Shown: positions 24,112 to 61,445 of the stretch, one piece after another
How positions within the stretch are numbered: the first letter of the stretch is position 1
Layout of the letters: each line of letters opens with the position of its first letter
Source of the DNA: Porphyra umbilicalis
Lineage: Eukaryota > Rhodophyta > Bangiophyceae > Bangiales > Bangiaceae
Reading direction: 5' to 3'
Length of the DNA stretch: 64,000 bases
NCBI GenBank assembly: GCA_002049455.2
Contig: KV919058.1
Location: 33,371-97,370, forward strand
Program-made: the position numbers and the translations under genes
Notes under the pieces: model-generated
Databases searched by the model: none
Told to the model about the DNA's origin: nothing
What the model saw: only the letters and a program-made list of their open reading frames with translations

Positions 24112-25595
24112 CTGTCCCCTGCCAATATCGTTTGTCCACCCTAGATTTGGACCCTCTGGCTCATTGGACTTCGCGAAAATCTCCCAAGAATGTGATCGAG
24201 GAGCACCTGCAAGGCCACTTCTCCTGGCGAAGCGTTGCCACACGCTGCTATGGCTTTTTCACATAAAAGCAGTGCCCAAGGCGGCACACGACCTGGAAAA
24301 AAAAAGAGGAGCACCACGACACCATGGCAGGCCACAACCGCGTCTCCCTCACCCCCCAGCAAGTCTCATCGATTAAAGAGATGGCTGACAAAAACAACAG
24401 CAACGGCGTCATCGCGGCGGCGCTCGACATCAAGAAGAGCACGGTGGCCTACGTCGCCAAGCAGTTGCGGAGCCCCCCTGCGCCCCCCAAGATTCACGGC
24501 CGCGGGCGTCCCCGCCTCCTGACGGCTCGAGACTCCCGCTCGCTGGCCCGCATCGTCAAGGCCAACCGTTTCGGCTCCCTCAACGCGATTACGGAGCTGG
24601 TCAACACGAGCCGCACTAAGCGCGTCTCTGCACGGACCATCGAGCGGGAGATGGTACGCATGGGCTACAAGTCGATGGAGCCGGCTGTCAAGCCATGGGT
24701 ATCTCACAAGAACAAGGGCAAACGTGTCCAATGGGCGCTAGAGTGGCGGTCATGGGTGGAGGAGTGGTCATTTGTCTTCTTTACGGACGAGAGCTCTTTC
24801 GAGGTCCGCCGCCCCACCCGTGCCCGCATTTGGCTCGTGGAGGGCGAGCGCTACTCCCCTATCTGCCTAAGGCCTTCGTTCAAGAGCGGGCGCCAGTCGG
24901 TGATGGTGTGGGGCGGCTTCTCGGCGCGCGGTCGCACCCCGCTCTACCGCGTAAAGGGCTCGATGCAGTCCGACCAGTACGAGGAGGTGCTCGGAGACCT
25001 GGTCTACCACCACATTGTGGCCGACTTTGGGTCTCCTGGCGGTGCCTGGCTGCAGGAGGACCTGGCTCCGTGCCACGCCTCGAAGCGGTCGAAGGCAGCC
25101 AAGGCGGACCTGGGCTTTTACGTCCTCCCGTGCATAGGTCAGAGCCCGGACCTGAATCCCATAGAGAACACGTGGGGGGAGCTGGACAGGCGACTGCGGG
25201 AGCGCGCGGTGGCACCCACGAACAAGGATGACCTGAACCAGGCGCTGTGTGAGGAGTGGGAGGCCATGCCGGCCGACTTCTTCACCGCCCTCGTGGAGTC
25301 CATGCCGCGTCGGGTGGAGGCGGTCATCGATGCCAAGGGTGGGGGCATCAAGTACTAGGCCGTCAAAGAGAGGGGAGGGAGAAGGAGAAGGGAGGGGGGG
25401 CGGGGGGGGGAGCCGCATCTTGTGGATGCTGGGTAGCTTGGATGCATAAGGGAGGGAGAGAGAAACAAACGTGTCGACGCGCCCAAGTCGTGGCCGCTGC
25501 CTGCAGTATCGCTGGATAGAGGCCTGTTGGATTCTTGACAAAATGATTTTGGGACTTGACTTGTGAAATGGGCAAACGATACTGGCAGGGGACTG
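24112..25595 (+). mobile_element. Complete Tc1/mariner element (1484 bp)
   Basis: TA lies at both ends (24110-24111 and 25596-25597). The inverted termini are CTGTCCCCTGCCAATATCG on the left and, read from the right, CAGTCCCCTGCCAGTATCG, with 24 of 27 bases matching. The only gene is an uninterrupted DD34E transposase. Length, termini, target site and gene all fit a Tc1-like element, and the lack of damage suggests recent activity. Confidence 0.93.
24324..25358 (+). CDS. Tc1-family transposase (DD34E)
   Basis: This is a 344-residue protein, a normal Tc1 length. The start is the ATG at 24324 (ACACCATGG). Residues about 8-50 form a paired-like helix-turn-helix (LTPQQVSSIKEMADKNN ... KKSTVAYVAKQL), followed by a GRGRPR AT-hook-like motif near residue 60 and a second helical DNA-binding part (SARTIEREMVRMGY). 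The catalytic triad is Asp155 (FFTDESSFE), Asp246 (QEDLAPCHASK) and Glu281 (SPDLNPIENTWGELDRRL), with 34 residues between the last two. The usual DNAPCH motif is DLAPCH here. The protein would act in the nucleus, cutting at the element's own termini and inserting at TA. There is no stop or frameshift. Confidence 0.95.
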   Translation: MAGHNRVSLTPQQVSSIKEMADKNNSNGVIAAALDIKKSTVAYVAKQLRSPPAPPKIHGRGRPRLLTARDSRSLARIVKANRFGSLNAITELVNTSRTKRVSARTIEREMVRMGYKSMEPAVKPWVSHKNKGKRVQWALEWRSWVEEWSFVFFTDESSFEVRRPTRARIWLVEGERYSPICLRPSFKSGRQSVMVWGGFSARGRTPLYRVKGSMQSDQYEEVLGDLVYHHIVADFGSPGGAWLQEDLAPCHASKRSKAAKADLGFYVLPCIGQSPDLNPIENTWGELDRRLRERAVAPTNKDDLNQALCEEWEAMPADFFTALVESMPRRVEAVIDAKGGGIKY

Positions 25596-29732: not shown

Positions 29733-32533
29733 TTACTCTGGCTCATCCTCAGCTTCAGCGTCCGTCTCTCCCGCCGAAGACACTGCCCACAGCTCGGCGT
29801 CGGCAGTGTATAGGATGGCCTCTGCATCAATCTCTAAACCGAGCCACGTCTCCACCACACGCGCACGCTCCACCCCCCCAGCGTCACCAAAACACCGTGC
29901 ACCTAGAGAGCAGCCCTGGATGCTCGTCAACACTCGTTCTACGTCCTCTCCGACAGACCGTAAGGAGTGTCGATATGACCCGTGCATTGCCGTCACCGGC
30001 GCCTCCATGAACGTCGGCAAATTTTGCGCTTTTACCCAGCAGTGCAAAATGGTTGCAGGGTCCATCGCCTCCCATTCCGCTTGGACAATCTAGGACATGT
30101 CCTGGAGGTTGGCTTGCGAACCGTCGCGCACGCCGCGCACAGGTCGCGGCGAGGCGGCCCGCCTCCGCGCAGGACGCGACCTCCGCTTACTTGCGGGGTG
30201 AAGGGTGGTGGGCGTCTCGGCGGCGGCGGTCCACACGTTGGGCACCGGGGGAGCCGGGTCAGCCGGCAGCTCGGTCACAGTGGGAGGCGTGACGATTGGG
30301 GTGTCGGCCAAGACGTGGCCGACACTGGATCCACCGAGCCCGTCCGCCACGCGAGTTGCGCCCGAGATGCGTGTCTCGTTCGAGGTGGTCGATGGGGCAG
30401 CCGCTCGCGCGCTCGCCAAATCGCTCACCGGCTCGCCCGCCGGGGCACCCTCGGGGGGTACAGTGGAGACACCCGACTGAACTCCTTGCTCCACAACGCC
30501 TTGAGCACCCCCGGACGACAAAGATCCGGGACCGACCGGTCCCGCCCCAGATGACATACTGGGGCTAGATTCAGCCATATCACCCAATGGGAGTACTGGC
30601 GCTTCCCCCAGCCGAAAGGTGTACCTCCAGGAGAAGCGCGGCGTTGTCCGCGCCGATCTCGGGAGAAATTCCGCAGCCAGCGTGGCACCCCCTGCTTCCA
30701 TCCAGGCACCTGCCTCACCCAGGGCGCCCCCAAACGCATACCTGACGCGACCTGTGCCACCCCTCTCTGTGGAGCGCTCAAGCGGCACGCTTGTGGAGCC
30801 ACCAGGACCGGTACTTGGGGTCGAAGGGTTGGCGCCTCCAAACTCGGCGCCCTCAATCTCTTGGTAGGCGGTCGCGGCTGTGGCTGAACTCGTCGCAGTG
30901 TCGCTGCTACGTTTCCACTCGCGTGGGGCTGCGCCAGCCTCACTGGCGGCGGCATCGCCGCCAATGGTGGATGGGCTATCACTACAGCCAACACGGCCAA
31001 CAGGGGCGCACGCTGCTCCTCCGGCCGGCTCCTGGCCGCCACTGCTCCTGGAGCGGCACGAGGCAGCGCTGTCTGTACTGGATCGAGAGCCATACCGGCT
31101 TCCAGTGGGCCCAGGAGAGGGTGTAACTGCCTCGTCGCCCGCCGTGGCAACACCGCTGGCCGCTCAATCCGTCTGGATGGATTCAGGGCTAGCAGCTACC
31201 GACACGGGTCACCCTTGCCCACCTGAGTCCAGAGGCGGCCCATTCGCCCGAGCCACAGCGCTCGGAGCCAGCCTCGACCGCTCAAAAGACCCGAGAATCA
31301 AACTCAAAAGACTTCCTTTGTAGCACCTCTTCAGTGCGGGAATAATGCCAGCATCGAAAGGCTGATGCACGGACGTGACGTTAGGTGGAAGAGGGCATAT
31401 AGCGACTTGTGGGTGCCGTGTGCTCCGCAATAGTCGACGACAAGGACACGGGGTAGCCTCGTTCTTGCCCGGACGGCCGGTAAAAAGACGGTGTTTAACC
31501 GTTTCTGGTACACGTCGCCACCCATCCAGGCCGACGGTTGGGAGAAGTAGGGAAGGGGGCATGGGGCTCGTGGGGACTTCAAGCACAAGTGTACCGCCGC
31601 CTTGCCAATGATTGCCACTGGGATCTTGAGAGACCCCGTAGCGTTGACTGCAAGCACCAGGGTCACGCGATCCTTGTTCTTCACGGCCTTGCTGCCTCTA
31701 GCCCGGCGTCTGCTGCCCGCCGAAACATACGCACGATTTGGGAGACACCGAAAGTAGAGACCGGTCTCGTCCATATTATAAATCTGCTCCGGGTTGAACG
31801 CCTCGAGTTGAGAACAGATCTCTTCCATCTGCTGTCGCAAGGCCTCCACGTCAGCCGCTGCCGACCCGCCGGTACCCCAGAGGGAGATATTCACGAGGGT
31901 GTGCCGCTTCGCCCACCTGCGCACAAAACCCGCCGACGCGGAGAATCCTGTGACTCCGAGGTTGGCCGCAATCTCCTCTGCTCGCTGGCGCAACACCGCC
32001 ATCGTTAGGGGCACGGATTTTGCTCCCAGTCCGGCACAAATGTTGCACCACCGCCGCAACTCAAGGTCGACGTCCGAAAAGGAAGTAGATCGCCGAAGCC
32101 GCCTTGTGGTCCCGGGCTCCTTCCTATACCGCTTGCGGAGGATCTCACGTCGACTCCACGCATCTTGAATGGCCGACTCTGAGACGGACTTGGGAAATGC
32201 TTCTTTGATATCTGCCCACGTCCTATACGCGCCCGACTCCTTCATCTCAATCATCTTGAGCTTTTCGTCGATCGTTAACAATTGGCGCGGTTTGCACATC
32301 GTACCAGCGCCGCCCCTTGTGGCTCGAGGCGGAGGGCGAGTCGCGGTAGGCCCGATGATCTTGTTTGACGCCACGGCTGCGGCGGATGCCGCGGATGCGG
32401 CAATGTCGATCGAGTGCCGCGTCTCACGCGACGGGGACGGGTAGACCTCCTGCACTGCTGCTTGAGCTACCGCCTTGGCCGTAGCGCTTACATTTCTTAC
32501 ACGCTGGTGGCTTACGCCAGTTTGATCAGCCAT
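29733..32533 (-). pseudogene. pogo-type transposase, disrupted by one frameshift and one nonsense codon
   Basis: The start is the ATG at 32533. An Ala-rich N-terminus precedes a CENP-B-like helix-turn-helix (LLTIDEKLKMIEMKESGAY). The first catalytic Asp is in IYNMDETG (31769-31771) and the second in VDYCGAH (31433-31435). Immediately afterwards the frame shifts by one; in the other frame ICPLPPNVTSVHQPFDAGII supplies the third Asp. A long Ala/Pro/Gly linker then leads to RGVRDGSQANLQDMS, a TAG at 30090-30092, and in the same frame the conserved end (AEWEAMDPATILHCWVK ... ) to 29733. The + copy at 43943 has Glu where the TAG lies, so this is a GAG-to-TAG change. The protein is related to but clearly diverged from that copy, so both belong to one family. 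Confidence 0.88.
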
Positions 32534-33118
32534 CGGGGAGGCATACAGTGCTCTGATGGCGCTTGGGGGTGGTAGGGGGGGAGTCGGGGGTGGCGGTGTG
32601 CATGGCGACGGGGGGGCAGGACCTTGGGACACCATAGCGCCCGGGGAGAAGGGCGCGAGCAGTCGACGCGAGGTCCTGCGACAGTGACGGTGGGGAATGC
32701 GGGGACGAGGACGGCACACTGCGGAGGCCGCTGTGACCAGGCGACGAGGGCGGACCGCTCATTAAGAATATTCAGACCGTGTCTATCACAAATTTTAACC
32801 AATACGAAGCGATCGAGAGACCTCATCGGGGTCGATCGCATCGGACTGCGATCGAGTTGTGCTCACTTGTAAAGCAGGTTACCTTATAAGCGGGACACAT
32901 ATAAATGCGCAATGACTGTAGTTTCACCCCAGTGATTTGATATCGCAGCAGCGTGTGTGCCAGCTTACGTCCCCGAACGCCTACCGGAATCGGATTGCGG
33001 ACTTTCTGGGCTCGGATTTAGAAAGCAGTGGAGGATTGCGAGCGAGAATATGTGACGAGTCTCAGGGTGCTATTTAACGGTCGACGACCGGACGCTGTCG
33101 CATCTCGCCGCCACCGCG

Positions 33119-43372: not shown

Positions 43373-46300
43373 CGGTCAATATCCGGATATATGCGCTCCA
43401 GTTATATGACCCCCTGTCATTTAAGTGGGAGGATCGCGATCGACAATCTGCTCGGGCTCGATCGCGCGATTGACCGATTGTCCTTGCAGCACCCCGATTA
43501 AGAGGAATTGAATTACCCAGATTAAGGGGGTACGACAAGGTGCGCACATTGGGGGGCCCTCGCCGTCGTAGACCCCATCGTCGTGGACATACCGTCGTGG
43601 ACCGCACCGTCGTCGACGTTACCCTCGTTGACCCCGCTAGTGCCGTGGTGCCGCCGTAGTGCCCGCTTTACACGACTGGGCGCTAACCGTGAGTACTACA
43701 GCTACCTGTGTTGGGAGCTTCTTACGCAGTGCCCAGGTTGCAGTTTCTTTCCTACTTTTTGTCGTCGTTTTCTGTGCTTTCGTGTTTTGGCGAGTGGTGT
43801 GGCGAGTCTGGTCCGTCGATGCTGTCTTGTTGTGCTTTTGTAGCTTCTTTTCTGTATGTCTTTACCTATGGATTGGAATCTGCTTGCTTTTGTTTTTGAG
43901 TTCGTCGTTTTGTGTGCTTGTGCTAGTTTGTGTGCTTCCGTCATGGTTATCCCTACTACAGCAAACCCCGATCAGGATAGCCCACAATGGCGGCGCTTAA
44001 GCGATGTGGCCGCTGCGGCTGCCGTGGCGGCGACGGAAGAGGCATACCCACGCCCCTCGCGCGAGACAGCCCAGGTCATCCAGATGGCTGCTCACGCAGC
44101 TACAGCCGCAACGGCCACGGCGCTCGGCGGAAATCCCGTACAGCTGTCGGATGTGCCGTGGCGGCCATCCACATCTCCAGGCGCTGCAGCCGCAAGTACG
44201 CAAGGGTCTGGTGGTGCAGCCAAAGACGTGGGCGCTCACGGTCCAGCGGGGCGTCGCTGGAGCCACAGCGTGGCGCGCGGACGGGGCGGCGCGCGGCGCG
44301 GACGGAACGGTGCTGGCCGGGCCGGGAGTGTGGCCGGTGAGGCCATTCGACGGCCGGGGTCGGGCGAGTGGGTCAAACCCCGTACGTCCATCCCGCTAGG
44401 TGACAAAATCGCCCTTATTGAGATCAAGGACGCTGGCCACTCGTGGGCACAGACCCTGGCCATCTTTTCACTCAACATTAGCCCGTCAGCCGCGCGGCAC
44501 ATCTACCGGAAGCGGAGCGAGTACAAGAGGCGAGCAGCGGCGTCGGAGGACTTGTCGGCGCCCCGCCTACGTCGGACCTACTTTGAGTCGGTATCCCAGA
44601 GTTTGTGGGATTGGTACCGTACCCTACAACGGGTGGGGGACGGCACCTACCGGTGTCAGGTGGCCTTTTAGAGGCCCGGGCACGGCGGATTGCGACCGAC
44701 CTCGGCGTTACGAGGTTCAAGGGTTCCCCACATTTCATCCAGAACTGGGCGGCACGGTACAAGCTGCACAACGTTGCCCTATGGGGTCAAGGAGGGTCGG
44801 CTGACATTGAAGCGGCGGCGACAAGCATCTCCGAGATCCGTTCGCAACTTGAGGCGTACCCTGCGGAACAAATCTACAACATGGACGAAACAGGGCTTTT
44901 CTACCGGTGCATCCCCAACCGAGCGTATGTGGAGGCTGGCCGAAGGCGGCAAACGCGGGGCACCAAAGCTATGAAAGCTAAAGATCGCATCACCCTTGTT
45001 TTGGCATGCAATGCAACCGGAACCCACAAGATACCGGCAGCCATCATCGGTAAGGCCAAGTTGCCGCTGTGTTTCATGCGTCCCCGTCAGCCGTGTCCAC
45101 TTCAGTACTTCTCCCAACAGAGTGCGTGGATGGACGGCGTGATCTTCAAGTCCTGGTTTGAGACCGTCTTCCTGCCGGCTGTGCGAGCCCGCACAAGTCA
45201 ACCAGTAGCCCTCATCTCCGACAATTGTGGGGCTTATGCGGAACTCGAGTGCGAGCAGGTCAAGTTCATCCCTCTACCGCCCAACTGCACGTCCGTCTAC
45301 CAACCGTTGGACCTGGGTATTATTGCCTGTCTCAAAAGACGGTACAAGCGACGATTACTGGACCTTGTTGTAAGTGCTTTTGAGAACACCACAAGATTCC
45401 GCGCGGCGGTAGGGGCCACGTCGGCCGCGGAAGCGGGCACACCGGCCACACTTCTGGCCCAGTCGGCCACCACGCGGTCAACCACTGGTGTGCTCCCTGC
45501 GGCGGCGGCGGGGGCGTCCGCCGCGCCGTCAGCAGAGAGCGCGACGGTGGGGCGCTTGGAGGGTGCGCCAACCGTCGCAGGCCCTGGAGAGGCGCCCATG
45601 GGGGTGGCGATCTCGGCGGCGACGGCGGGCCCGGCGGCGGGTCGGGCCCCCACGGGGTCTGTAGCGGGCGGTGCGAGCACCGGCGTGGGACAGTCCGGTG
45701 GCCCGGCATCGGGCCCGGTGCCGCGTGTACGCTCTATGGAAATCGCGGTGACGGGCCCAATGGCAGCCGACATGAGTGCTGCCCGCCGGGCGTCGGCCAC
45801 GGATGCGGGACCCCACTTGGGTGCCACGCCGGCAATGGATGGCGCTTTGGCAGGCGCCGCTGCGGTTGCGCCGCCTGTGGTGGTGTTTGGCAACGGCAGC
45901 GGCACACCTCCCGCGGCCCCTGGCCCGGGGATCTGGGGCTCACCGTCGGACGGGCCTGCGGCCGCAGATCCTGGGCAGCCAATTCGTCGCCGTTCACGCG
46001 CTCGAGCCCTCCCCGTGGTGATCCGTGGTGTCCGGGACGGTGCCGCGGCGCACTTGCAAGATGCGTCGGAGATTGTGAAGGCCGAGTGGGAGGCGGTCAA
46101 GCCGGCCACTATCGCGCACGGCTGGGTCAAGTCTACTATTTTACCTAACGGGCTTGCCATGGATGTCACCGCCTTGCACGGCGAGTACCGTGCATCATCT
46201 CGATCGATTGCCGAGGATGTCAGCTCGGTGGTGACTTTAATGGGGGGTTGTGGTTTTGGCGAGACGGCCTTTTCGGGATCTCCGATGGCTGTGAGGGAGG

Positions 46301-47026
46301 AGGCGGTGGAGAAGTGGTTAGCTGCGGAAGATGACGAAGGAGTGCTGGCTGCCTCGGCAGACCGGATGGTGTTTGACGAGGGAGACGGGGAGGATGCGTC
46401 GGAGGACGACGATGAGTGATTTTTTTCTTGCGGCCTTTTCTTGACGTCGACACGGATGGACAGCATTCGACACCACTGTGCCAGTGTCTCGCTCATTGCT
46501 ATCGTGGCACACATGATAATGGGGATGAGGCTAGGGGGCGTGACGGAAGAGGGAGGTGGAGGAGTGGATTTCTGTGGTTGCAGTGGCGGTTGTAGCGTCG
46601 AACCGGTCGCGACTACGGTTGTCTGGAAAAGAGGCGAGATAGCGCGGCGGATATGGCTTGGTCCTTGTTGAGCTTTTCCAGCTCCGGTGAGTACGACCGG
46701 CATTCCCTGCACGAGTCTGTCTCGACCTTGTCGTGGTGCAGACTCTTTCTGGACATGAGAGAAGGCTCTGGCAATCTCGAGTCATGTCAATTCCGTAGTT
46801 TCTCACGTCGGCGACAGATCAACCTCTGCCTAACCGGGCTCAATCCTGCGATTGAGTGCCCCCCCTGGCATTGAGCCATGCTCGGGCAGCACTGATCTGT
46901 CTCAGAAAGCGATCGACAGCAGGTGAATTGAGGAAGCCCTGCCCGGTGCGACACGAGAATGCATCGCTGAAACCGGGGCTACATGTGTCCGTAGGGGTGT
47001 CATATAAGCGGATATTGAATGTACTG
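43373..47026 (+). mobile_element. pogo-type element with family K termini (about 3.65 kb)
   Basis: On the left, TA (43371-43372) is followed by CGGTCAATATCCGGATATATG and GCGCTCCAGTTAT. On the right, GGATATTGAATGTACTG precedes TA (47027-47028). The termini match the K MITEs at 9890 and 55395. The right terminus has four extra bases, so the end assignment is reasonable rather than certain. It encloses one transposase gene. Confidence 0.65.
43943..46419 (+). pseudogene. pogo-type transposase with one frameshift
   Basis: The N-terminal part starts at the ATG at 43943 with a CENP-B-like region (IPLGDKIALIEIKDAGHSW). The frame shifts by one near 44655-44672 (GTGGCCTTTTAGAGG). The second frame carries LEARARRIATDLGVTRF and the whole catalytic domain: Asp at 44884-44886 (IYNMDETG), 45220-45222 (LISDNCGAY) and 45310-45312 (VYQPLDLGII), the DD29D spacing of pogo. 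After TRFRAAVG comes a roughly 200-residue Ala/Gly/Pro/Thr linker, then RGVRDGAAAHLQDASEIVK, AEWEAVKPATIAHGWVK and an acidic C-terminus ending at 46419. Apart from the shift everything is intact, so a sequencing error or a very recent loss is possible. Confidence 0.88.
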
Positions 47027-57300: not shown

Positions 57301-59239
57301 ATGAGCTCCAGCAGCAGCGCCCCGTCGTCGGCCCCCCCGGCGGTGGCGGTACCGCCAGCGGCAGCGACGGCCACATCTGGCGGCCGCAGCACGGCGGGCT
57401 CGAGTGGCGGCGGTGGCGGCGGCGGCAGCGCGTCGGTGGCGGCGCCTGCGGTGGCACTGGCGGTCCCCGTAGTCTCTTCCAAGGGGAAGACCAGCTCCTC
57501 GGCGGGGGGAGCGGGTGGGTCAGCCCGCGCCGTGGCGGGCCGGTCGGGCACCAACCGGATCTCCAACAGCTGTATCCTGCGCATCCAGCAAGAGATTACG
57601 CAGCTGATACAGGAGCCGGTACCTTTTATCTATGTTGAGCCAGATGAGGAGGACATCACCCACATCCAGGCGCTGATCATTGGGCCGTTGGAGACCCCGT
57701 ATGCTGTAGGTTTTGCGGCCCATGTTTTTTTTTGTGGGGAGGCGTTGCCGCAAGGTGGGGCTGAGAGGTTTCGGCCGTCGCTGTTGGGAGCAAGGGGGCT
57801 GCGTACCGAGAGGATGGGGCACGTTTGCGCCAAACGCGTGGTGCCGCTGTTCGCGCATGCATATGCTGACATTGGGTCTTGACTGTTCCTGCTGCGGTGT
57901 GTTGTGCGGTACTCGTGTACACCCTTGCCTGCTTGGCCTGCCCCTCTCACTGCCGTGCACTGTCCGTCGCACTTGATCGCCGGTGGCTTCCTGGCTGCAG
58001 GGTGGCATGTTCCATTTCGACATCCGGGTGCCCCCCGAGTATCCGTACAAGCCCCCACAAGTGAACCTGCGCACAACGGACGGGGGGCGGGTGCGCTTCA
58101 ACCCCAACCTGTACGCCACTGGCCGGGTGTGCCTGTCCATCCTCGGCACGTGGGAGGGCCCCGCTTGGTCGTCGGCTGAGTCCCTCTCCTCTGTGCTGCT
58201 CTCTATCCAGTCGCTTATGTGTGCCAAGCCATACCACAATGAGCCGGGCTTTGAGAACGTGCGCGATGCGGCCGCCGTGACGCGCTACAACGAGTACATT
58301 TCCTACGAGACGCTGCGGGTGGCAGTAGTCGGCATGATTGACGCCCCAACCTGCGGCGACGCCTTTTCGGACGTGATGGAGCGCCACCTGTTGCTGTGGT
58401 TTGACATGTTCCATCATGCGTGTGTGGAAGCGGCGGGGCGACTGGAACACAGCACGTACAATGACAAGTTCTCCTCTGCCCGAGGCACATACAAGTTTGG
58501 GGAGGTGGCAGAGAAGCTGCTGGCTGCGCGGGAGCGCATCCTCACCCGCCTGACGAGCGTGCAGCGGCCGCGGCCGCTGTTCTCTGCGGCGTCTCAAGTT
58601 CCAGGGGTGGCGACCGCGGACGGCACGTCGGGGTCGCCCGCCCCCCCCTCCGGCTCCCCGGCACACCCGTCGTCTGCGCCCTCGGAGGCAGGCAATGGCG
58701 CCGATGGCGGGGCTGGCAATGGGGCCACGGCCACGCCCGTCGTGGTGGACCCGCACGCAACGGAAGTGTCGGCAGACGCGGTCGCCTACGCGACGGAGCG
58801 CCTCATCGACGAGCACCGCGCGCTGTCGGTGAACCCACCGGCGGGCGTGTCGGCATCGCCTCGCGACCCCGCATTCCCTTTCGTGTGGGACGCCACGGTG
58901 AGTGGCCCCGAGCGGTCGCCGTGGGAGGGTGGCCTGTTTGCACTCGAGGTCTATTGCGCCGCCGACCACCCTGCTCGCCCCCCGTTTGTGCGGTTCGCCG
59001 CTGGCAGTGAGATGCCCATGTTCCACCCCAACGTTACCCCCGACGGGATGATTCCGGCGCTCGCCTGCGTCAATGCGCGGTGGAACCCGGCGACGAAGCT
59101 ATCGGCTGTGCTTGTGGCCCTGCAGCAGCTGCTGGGAACGCCGGATGCGACGTACGCGGTCAACACCGCAGCGGCCAAGCTATTTGCCAATGACAGGAAA
59201 ACGTATGAGCGGAGGGCGCGGAGGATTGCACAGGGTTGA
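57301..59239 (+). CDS. UBE2Z-like ubiquitin-conjugating enzyme with a second UBC-like domain
   Basis: Exons are 57301-57705 and 58001-59239, giving 547 residues. The 295-bp intron (GCT|GTAGGT ... CTGCAG|GGT) is phase 0 and joins ETPYA to GGMFHFDIRV, as expected for the UBE2Z family (GPFDTPYEGGFF in animals). Residues 1-85 are a disordered Ser/Gly/Ala leader. Domain 1 (about 86-240) has RFNPNLYATG, catalytic Cys179 in GRVCLSILGTW, GPAWS and PYHNEPGFE, typical of E2Z, which in animals takes charged ubiquitin or FAT10 from UBA6. A Pro/Ser/Gly linker follows. Domain 2 (about 390-547) has PPFVRF, MFHPNVTPDG, WNPATKLSAVLVALQQLL and a C-terminal helix, but the catalytic position reads Pro487 in GMIPALAC; a Cys lies four residues later. 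It probably acts in cytosol or nucleus. Confidence 0.94.
57706..58000 (+). other. Intron of the E2 gene
   Basis: The donor is GT in ATGCT|GTAGGT and the acceptor GGCTGCAG|GGTGGC. Removal restores the E2 core exactly between TPYA and GGMF. Confidence 0.92.
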
Positions 59240-59737: not shown

Positions 59738-60628
59738 TCACTGCTTGCCTCGGTCCATCGCCGCCGCGTCGTTGCCTGTGCACCTCCGCCCCGCCTCCAC
59801 CCGCATGCGCTGTTGAGCCACCTTGCACTGGCCCATGCAGCCAGCGTCAAAGGCCGGGTCCTCCGCCACCGGCGGGGGCTTGGTACCGAACGAAAACTGG
59901 CACTCAAAGGTATCATAGTTGGGCTGCATCCACAGGTCCACGCCGAGCCCCTCCTTGAGGAACGTCTCGGTCGGCACCTTGCAACCGTTGACGCAGGTAC
60001 TCACGCAGCCGGTAGCTTCCAGGTAGCGGCAACGCTCGACGAGGACGCCCTTGCCGCCCTCGTTGAGCGTGTTGGGCCCCATCAACCAACGACTCGTCAA
60101 GGACGTGACGGCGGCGTTGAGACGCGCAGAAACGCCCGGCAGGGCAACCGCAAAGGAGTTGCGGAAGGCGACCAGAATCCACTCAGGGAAAAGGCTGTAG
60201 AGCACCCGCAGGGAGCCAGCAGTCAGGTCACGAGGGCGGTTGTTGTACTTGGCAGACAGGGCCGACACCAGCTCCATGGAGCCGTTAAAACCCGGTGAGA
60301 GGTTCGCGGGCGGGGGGACAGGCGCGAGCTCCTCGATGAGGGCGTTGCGAAAGGCCGACAACAAGACGCGGGAGCGGAGCTCCTCATCAATGGCCGTGTA
60401 GTCAGGGGGGGCGTCGGTCGGGCCCCGGACCTCCAACGGCGCGTTGGACGGCGTCCGCGGCACCCGCACCACGGGGGGTGGTGAGGAGCCGGCGGACGCG
60501 CTCATGGACGCGGCGTGCCGCCGGGGAGCACCACAGACGCGGGGCCTTCCAGCCAGCGATGTACCAGTGGAGGTCGCAACCAGACGCCGGGGGGTGACCG
60601 GCGCCGCGGCCGGGGCGAGGAACGCCAT
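59738..60628 (-). CDS. D27-like (DUF4033) protein, probable plastid carotenoid isomerase
   Basis: This is a 296-residue protein from the first ATG in frame (60628). The N-terminus MAFLAPAAAPVTPRRL and a Ser/Thr/Arg-rich stretch to about residue 45 resemble a plastid transit peptide with the early Phe typical of red algae. The family signature lies near residues 197-225: VERCRYLEATGCVSTCVNGC then KVPTETFL, followed by GVDLWMQPNYDTFECQFSFG, PPPVAEDPA and a final CMGQC, which is the D27 arrangement. Plant D27 is an iron-dependent beta-carotene 9-isomerase feeding strigolactone synthesis; other family members isomerise carotenoids at other positions, so the exact reaction here is open. The stop is TGA at 59740. 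It converges with the E2 gene and shares an 817-bp divergent upstream region with the Myb gene. No intron is needed. Confidence 0.9.
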   Translation of the reverse strand: MAFLAPAAAPVTPRRLVATSTGTSLAGRPRVCGAPRRHAASMSASAGSSPPPVVRVPRTPSNAPLEVRGPTDAPPDYTAIDEELRSRVLLSAFRNALIEELAPVPPPANLSPGFNGSMELVSALSAKYNNRPRDLTAGSLRVLYSLFPEWILVAFRNSFAVALPGVSARLNAAVTSLTSRWLMGPNTLNEGGKGVLVERCRYLEATGCVSTCVNGCKVPTETFLKEGLGVDLWMQPNYDTFECQFSFGTKPPPVAEDPAFDAGCMGQCKVAQQRMRVEAGRRCTGNDAAAMDRGKQ

Positions 60629-61445
60629 CGCTTCACTGGCTGCCACGGCAAAGTCCAGTGCTTGTTGAGCAGCCGTCCACAAAACGAGGACGAGGCGGAA
60701 GAGCGATAGCAGAGGCGACTCGAGACGGCAGGCGAGACACAGAGGGAGGTGAAGATGAACAGGTAGCGTATGAGGAGGTATTGTCCGTCCCTACAGGCCG
60801 CGTGTGGAGTGGCAGGGTGGAAGGATGATGGCGGCGGACGTGCCAGGTGCGTAGAGATGGGTGGCAAACAGGTCTCTTGCACGAGATCCAGAGACAAACA
60901 GATAGGGCGGGCTACAAGAAAAAGATGCTCTTCGCGCACCACTCGTCAGTTTGTGACGGATATGATGGAATTTGTGGTCGAACTCGCACAGATGCCTCAA
61001 TGGGGGGTGTCAGAGCAGGTGTGAGACGAACACGGAAAAAAACAGGGACCATCGGCGCTGCGAGACGACAGCGGGCCTGGCGGGACCTTCGAGAGGGTCG
61101 TGGCGCGACGCGAGCGGGTGGTGGTTCCGTTTTCTGGACCAACCAATTGCCTGTTGCTGCCTTTTTTTTTTCTGTTTCGGCGGCACCCAGGCGCCGCCGC
61201 TCGTGTGTGCCGCCAGCGCCAGTCGTGCGCGTGACCCCTGTCTGTGTGTTGTGTGTGCGCCGTCGGCGAGGGGCGCAGAGCGACGTGATATGGGGGCCGT
61301 GGCGCGCACCAGCGGGCTGCACGGTCGTGCGCGTGCGGTTGGGTCCGCGGCAGGCCGGTGGCCGGCTGCAGCATAGGTGGGGGGGGTGGTTGGCTTGGCG
61401 GCTGCGGTGGCCTCTCCCCGCCGCGTTGCCCCCTCGGCGGACGAG
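60629..61445. promoter_or_regulatory. Divergent upstream region between the D27-like and Myb-like genes
   Basis: These 817 bp lie between two outward-facing starts. They contain a T-run (about 61161-61170) and ordinary mixed sequence. No clear TATA box was identified. Shared regulation is possible but unproven. Confidence 0.5.

Follow-up and report, generated by a model that had tools for sequence, protein, structure and literature searches.

The question raised by this locus is whether a single gene of the red alga Porphyra umbilicalis combines an E2 of the UBE2Z type with a second UBC domain that has lost its catalytic cysteine, and which role such a domain might play. The gene is located in the window, a stretch of 64,000 nucleotides that corresponds to positions 33371-97370 of contig C298 in an assembly of 83.8 Mb and 665 contigs. 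At 57301-59239 on the forward strand, two exons separated by one intron encode a product of 547 residues, with the stop codon included in exon 2. The residue numbers of Cys179, Pro487 and Cys491 given in a sequence-only reading of the locus are correct for exons at 57301-57705 and 58001-59239. Together, sequence and predicted structure support the presence of an active-looking UBE2Z and an apparently dead UBC domain in the same protein.

Gene structure and the UBE2Z-type domain

The features of the gene, all on the forward strand and in positions of the window, are:

57301..57705 (+): exon 1, encoding from the start codon an N-terminal extension rich in Ala, Gly and Ser (about residues 1-85) and, of the UBE2Z core, helix 1 and the first strands
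57706..58000 (+): intron of 295 nt, GTAGGT...CTGCAG, phase 0, between TPYA and GG, at the same site as the intron of a paralogue on contig C20
58001..58555 (+): part of exon 2 encoding residues 136-320, the UBE2Z core with its C-terminal extension, including Cys179 and loop LB (GTWEGPAW)
58130..58132 (+): codon of Cys179, the UBE2Z catalytic Cys, from sequence and PDB match
58556..58789 (+): linker of 234 nt (78 residues), open and devoid of an in-frame ATG
58799..59224 (+): second UBC domain (domain 2, residues 402-543), catalytically dead as judged by sequence, from its PF00179 match, RAD6-type PDB matches and predicted fold
59024..59032 (+): retained HPN motif of domain 2 (His477-Pro478-Asn479), from sequence, PDB match and alignment
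59054..59059 (+): Pro487-Ala488 in place of the catalytic Cys, from PDB match and alignments
59066..59068 (+): Cys491, which pairwise alignments do not place opposite the catalytic Cys and which the loop of the paralogue lacks; one four-row MAFFT alignment speaks against the former
59153..59155 (+): Tyr520, which occupies the conserved Ser/Asp (CES/D) site, where the C20 paralogue has a Trp

Within exon 2 alone (58001-59239), a single stop-free frame runs from the catalytic half of UBE2Z through its C-terminal extension and the linker and includes all of domain 2.

The first domain displays the hallmarks of UBE2Z that had been ascribed to it, including Cys179. Its exon-2 part finds human UBE2Z (5a4p) as best match in the PDB (E 1.8e-51, reaching across the C-terminal extension and the portion of the UBC core in exon 2), followed by BIRC6 (about 1e-27) and UBE2O (about 1e-17), with other E2s starting near 1e-11. 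Within the aligned part, the domain and human UBE2Z are 48% identical, and the match of exon 1 to PF00179 (positions 1-43, 19.3 bits) lies below the cut-off of 27. BIRC6 and UBE2O are large E2s of the UBE2Z class which share the conserved loop LB with the algal domain, and a second UBC domain is not known in either of them. The relationship is also reflected in the features that PMC4705383 describes for human UBE2Z, among them a catalytic Cys, loop LA, a Trp in loop LB and a Phe in LD: the algal UBC core contains the Cys in a VCLSILGTW context, GTWEGPAW in loop LB aligns with GTWTGPAW including the conserved Trp, the LA insertion ahead of the NPN/HPN motif aligns without gaps (TTDGGRVRFNPN compared to TTGNNTVRFNPN in the human protein), and the C-terminal extension can be aligned up to about residue 320, with the Phe of DKF opposite the LD-loop Phe of DPF. 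The disordered Ala/Gly-rich N-terminus of human UBE2Z (USE1), with 23% A, 20% G, 12% P and 10% S according to the same source, finds its counterpart in residues 1-85 of the algal protein, with 24% A, 20% G, 8% P and 24% S. By its sequence, the domain should be catalytically active and would presumably become charged with ubiquitin.

According to PMC4705383, human UBE2Z consists of 354 residues with only a disordered tail past the C-terminal extension, whereas the algal protein contains a second UBC domain in this place. A UBE2Z is characterized by one UBC domain and by the absence of anything folded past this extension, and the second UBC domain at residues 402-543 thus makes the whole protein an architectural variant. 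No other UBE2Z-type gene was found among the matches listed for the exon-2 protein in its own genome, where the best stretch per place was considered.

The second UBC domain and its active site

The second UBC fold that had been recognized after the linker is borne out by profile, PDB matches and predicted structure. Both checks proposed for the second half, a profile search and a structure prediction, identify this fold, the former with an end-to-end match to PF00179 (UQ_con, 100.5 bits, E 7.6e-29, positions 1-138 of 140) and the latter with a helix, four strands and further helices. Two models demand caution. A single-sequence prediction (pLDDT 48.1), whose 50 listed Foldseek matches are E2 entries with TM values of 0.35-0.40 relative to the model and rmsd of 10.6-18.6, was for this reason set aside as evidence of the fold. 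In a second model, where the first codon of the modelled stretch, GTG, was read as Met, the input was a four-row alignment with Cys-bearing E2s that places Cys491 under their Cys, and pLDDT in the blocks around the active site is 59-69; its active-site loop is for both reasons not used as evidence.

The description of the domain as UEV-like holds for its mechanistic class, an E2 fold without catalytic Cys as in UBE2V/MMS2 and TSG101, but not for its sequence family. A search with domain 2 returned UQ_con alone and no match to PF05743 (UEV) at E<=1, neither UBE2V nor TSG101 is among the best 60 of 304 PDB matches, and the HPN motif is kept; the UEV match of the other query protein falls into domain 1. 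UEVs are known as stand-alone proteins or fused to non-E2 domains, and domain 2 differs from them in being closer to RAD6-type E2s, which are its nearest relatives in the PDB search. It shares with RAD6/UBE2A the highest sequence similarity, the length of a class-I E2 and the terminal helix, whereas it lacks the Cys, contains a Tyr at the site of Ser120, four more residues before HPN, and Thr, Glu and Asp at three positions of helix 1 that are Arg in UBE2A. Presumably, such Arg residues contact E1. The four additional residues (in the stretch 58997-59020) are located where UBE2Z and BIRC6 have loop LA.

When domain 2 is aligned pairwise to each of 16 E2 rows that contain the catalytic Cys, using the first optimal alignment, Ala488 falls opposite this Cys in 15 cases and a gap in one, whereas Cys491 does so in none. 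The claim that Pro487 occupies the catalytic position with Cys491 four residues on thus stands with respect to the missing Cys, whereas the residue in its place is Ala488, which Pro487 adjoins. Cys491 was consequently rejected as catalytic residue in our main reading, although a single four-row MAFFT alignment places it under the catalytic column. The E2 signature comprises the Cys, HPN, an invariant Trp and a Ser/Asp site, the last of which is not strictly conserved in inactive E2s, as described in PMC4604453. Domain 2 keeps HPN, the invariant Trp (Trp496) and the W-x-P-A loop and contains Tyr520 at the Ser/Asp site of active E2s. That the Cys is missing through a sequencing error or an undetected frameshift was rejected in light of the C20 paralogue, which shares Pro-Ala and a Cys-free loop.

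Among 15 UBC domains of the same genome in the tree alignment, which are part of 25 exon matches, the Cys is present in 11 and missing in four, namely domain 2, both domains of the C20 paralogue and an E2-like domain at C367:8442-8774 (+; L048). The last is nearest to UBE2E1/UBE2D (8iya, E 1.5e-29) and has an Ala at the place of the Cys.

A diverged paralogue and the origin of the second domain

Besides itself, domain 2 finds its best match within its own genome at C20:25414-25830 (41% identity), with a second matching stretch at C20:24255-24530, about 1 kb before. They lie in the following locus:

C20:23794-25851 (+): diverged paralogue of the fusion, without Cys at either catalytic place and with a frame that changes twice as assembled

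In its sequence, TPYA is followed by an intron of matching site and phase, then by a UBE2Z-like domain 1, a linker and domain 2. At the catalytic place of its domain 1 we find Asp-His, with the nearest Cys just ahead of the Trp, and in domain 2 Pro-Ala. The two frame shifts of the assembled sequence, one beside a run of 10 C, are located between the domains and may reflect either decay or homopolymer errors, and codon-position bias remains in domain 2 (GC 0.827/0.604/0.906). In a tree, the two second domains are joined at 100/99 and the first domain of C20 groups with UBE2Z at 96/95, both C20 rows being long branches. Since they are common to both loci, fusion, intron and loss of the Cys in domain 2 predate the duplication. 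The only other example of the fusion found is broken as assembled and Cys-less at both sites, and the architecture may thus be tolerated rather than needed.

The origin of domain 2 is less clearly defined. Its place near RAD6-type E2s in the tree is weakly supported (72/82 for a group of seven rows), and neither a RAD6 group nor an internal UBE2Z duplication is rejected by AU tests (p 0.297 and 0.276, respectively, or 0.318 and 0.172 after removal of the C20 and C367 rows). The end branch of domain 2 is 0.049 compared to 2.17 for C20, which would fit constraint on the copy in the window, although weakly, since without C20 domain 2 is itself a long branch of 1.64.

Beyond the algal genome, domain 2 matched no stretch in the collection viral_contigs, and none of 28 stretches that the exon-2 protein retrieved from genome_contigs is a relative. 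A query with a UBE2Z pair alignment retrieved 67 stretches from viral_contigs, none of them a relative, and 11 from genome_contigs, with one relative:

L053:3842-4561 (+): UBE2Z-like E2 in one frame of 239 residues, with a single UBC domain as judged by eye

This protein provides a one-domain comparison for the algal fusion. The record is filed as an Opitutia MAG and a neighbouring gene resembles, by eye, a giant-virus primase-helicase; it is probably misbinned viral sequence.

Potential roles of the second domain

The second catalytic-Cys domain of E1 and the E1 UFD each have one match in the algal genome, both in a single gene on C503 (L043) that scores 924 bits to UBA1 compared to 674 to UBA6. 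This UBA1-like protein is the sole ubiquitin-type E1 found, and no UBA6-type E1 was seen in that genome. UBE2Z is best known as an E2 dedicated to UBA6. The selective pairing of human UBE2Z with UBA6 described in PMC4705383 contrasts with the alga, where only a UBA1-type E1 was found. UBA6 is reported from vertebrates and sea urchins only (PMC6539292), whereas UBE2Z homologues are widespread in a survey including Apicomplexa (PMC11354881). In light of these narrow and wide distributions, the function of UBE2Z without UBA6 is a general question that is not peculiar to the alga, and the gene described here permits asking it of a UBE2Z bearing a dead E2 domain. Since the genome also contains a gene matching the UEV profile (TSG101-type, C96) and another that looks like MMS2 by eye (C362), domain 2 need not replace absent free UEVs. 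Two E2 loci that resemble UBC13 and score equally, C63:145512-145799 (-; L003) and C63:148755-149042 (+; L004), are located about 3 kb apart in opposite orientation, as in an inverted duplication.

In our preferred reading, to which we assign a probability of about 0.55, an active UBE2Z carries a dead RAD6-like class-I UBC domain at its C-terminus, which would dock in cis on a flexible linker. The UBE2Z part would be charged by the UBA1-type E1 of the alga. The dead domain would be unable to accept ubiquitin from E1, with neither Cys nor Ser/Asp site and a more acidic helix 1, and would most likely hold an E3, ubiquitin or a substrate beside the UBE2Z~ubiquitin thioester. The steering of chain type or recruitment of substrate that the sequence-only reading proposed may be among its roles. 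Domain 2 looks like a binding module since it is near-canonical along its length and yet has lost the Cys and the Ser/Asp site, and its attachment to an active UBE2Z makes docking in cis the simplest role. The completeness of the UBE2Z domain, the end-to-end profile match of domain 2 and the same architecture and intron site in C20 all argue for this docking role, which, if true, would illustrate that an E2/pseudo-E2 pair, normally two proteins, can be wired as one chain. UBE2Z and Cys-less E2s are each known already, and their combination in a single chain, which may still have been described elsewhere, did not turn up in a search that covered literature with few subscription papers rather than protein-architecture databases. 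In the UBE2Q family, a noncatalytic UBC-related part is fused to an active UBC. This part is N-terminal and RWD-like, whereas the dead domain of the algal protein is C-terminal and a near-canonical UBC.

As an unlikely though plausible alternative, domain 2 would regulate rather than recruit, by folding back on or dimerizing with the UBE2Z core and thereby blocking or orienting it. Tethered by 78 linker residues, a domain with the predicted complete UBC fold could reach the core, and E2 domains can pack against one another. An extension of the docking role, in which the dead UBC holds acceptor ubiquitin or substrate in cis for the UBA1-charged UBE2Z and thereby gives the alga a self-contained chain builder that perhaps needs no E3, along with a UBE2Z pathway free of UBA6, appears speculative and quite doubtful. 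We consider it improbable that the fused E2 has lost its function and that domain 2 is drifting as its remnant; this would agree with the strong divergence (branch 2.17) and the two frame changes of the C20 copy, but not with a score of 100.5 bits over the full profile, 41% identity with an E2 of Naegleria across 138 columns and a retained codon-position bias (GC 0.678/0.550/0.785). A two-headed E2, where the active-site loop would have shifted and Cys491 would render domain 2 active, is very unlikely: its HPN motif and the four-row alignment would be in line with such activity, whereas the pairwise alignments, the missing Cys in the loop of the paralogue and Tyr520 contradict it, and such a shift requires both an insertion ahead of the Cys and a deletion behind it, when otherwise one extra residue is enough. 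Least probable by our estimate are two neighbouring genes read as one in GC-rich DNA that is open by chance, since, although 34% of base-shuffle trials leave the linker open before the frame is matched and all three forward frames are open, which makes its openness taken alone weak evidence of a fusion, the latter is better supported by the lack of an in-frame ATG between 58406 and 59012, the first past domain 1 and already inside domain 2, and by the same domain order in C20, with a gap of merely 234 nt that contains none of the four strings AATAAA, TATAAA, TGTAA and TATA. A single transcript would be expected to encode both domains of the protein.

Downstream of the gene, an ORF at 59738-60682 (-) encodes a D27-like C-terminal domain (PF13225, 99 bits). 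Transposase-like ORFs of the window are found at 44605-46419 (+; DDE_1), 31331-32719 (-; DDE_1 and HTH_Tnp_Tc5) and 24324-25358 (+; DDE_3 and HTH_Tnp_Tc3_2). In line with a red-algal genome, contig C665 of the same assembly holds 10 of 11 phycobilisome matches, as expected of a plastid genome.
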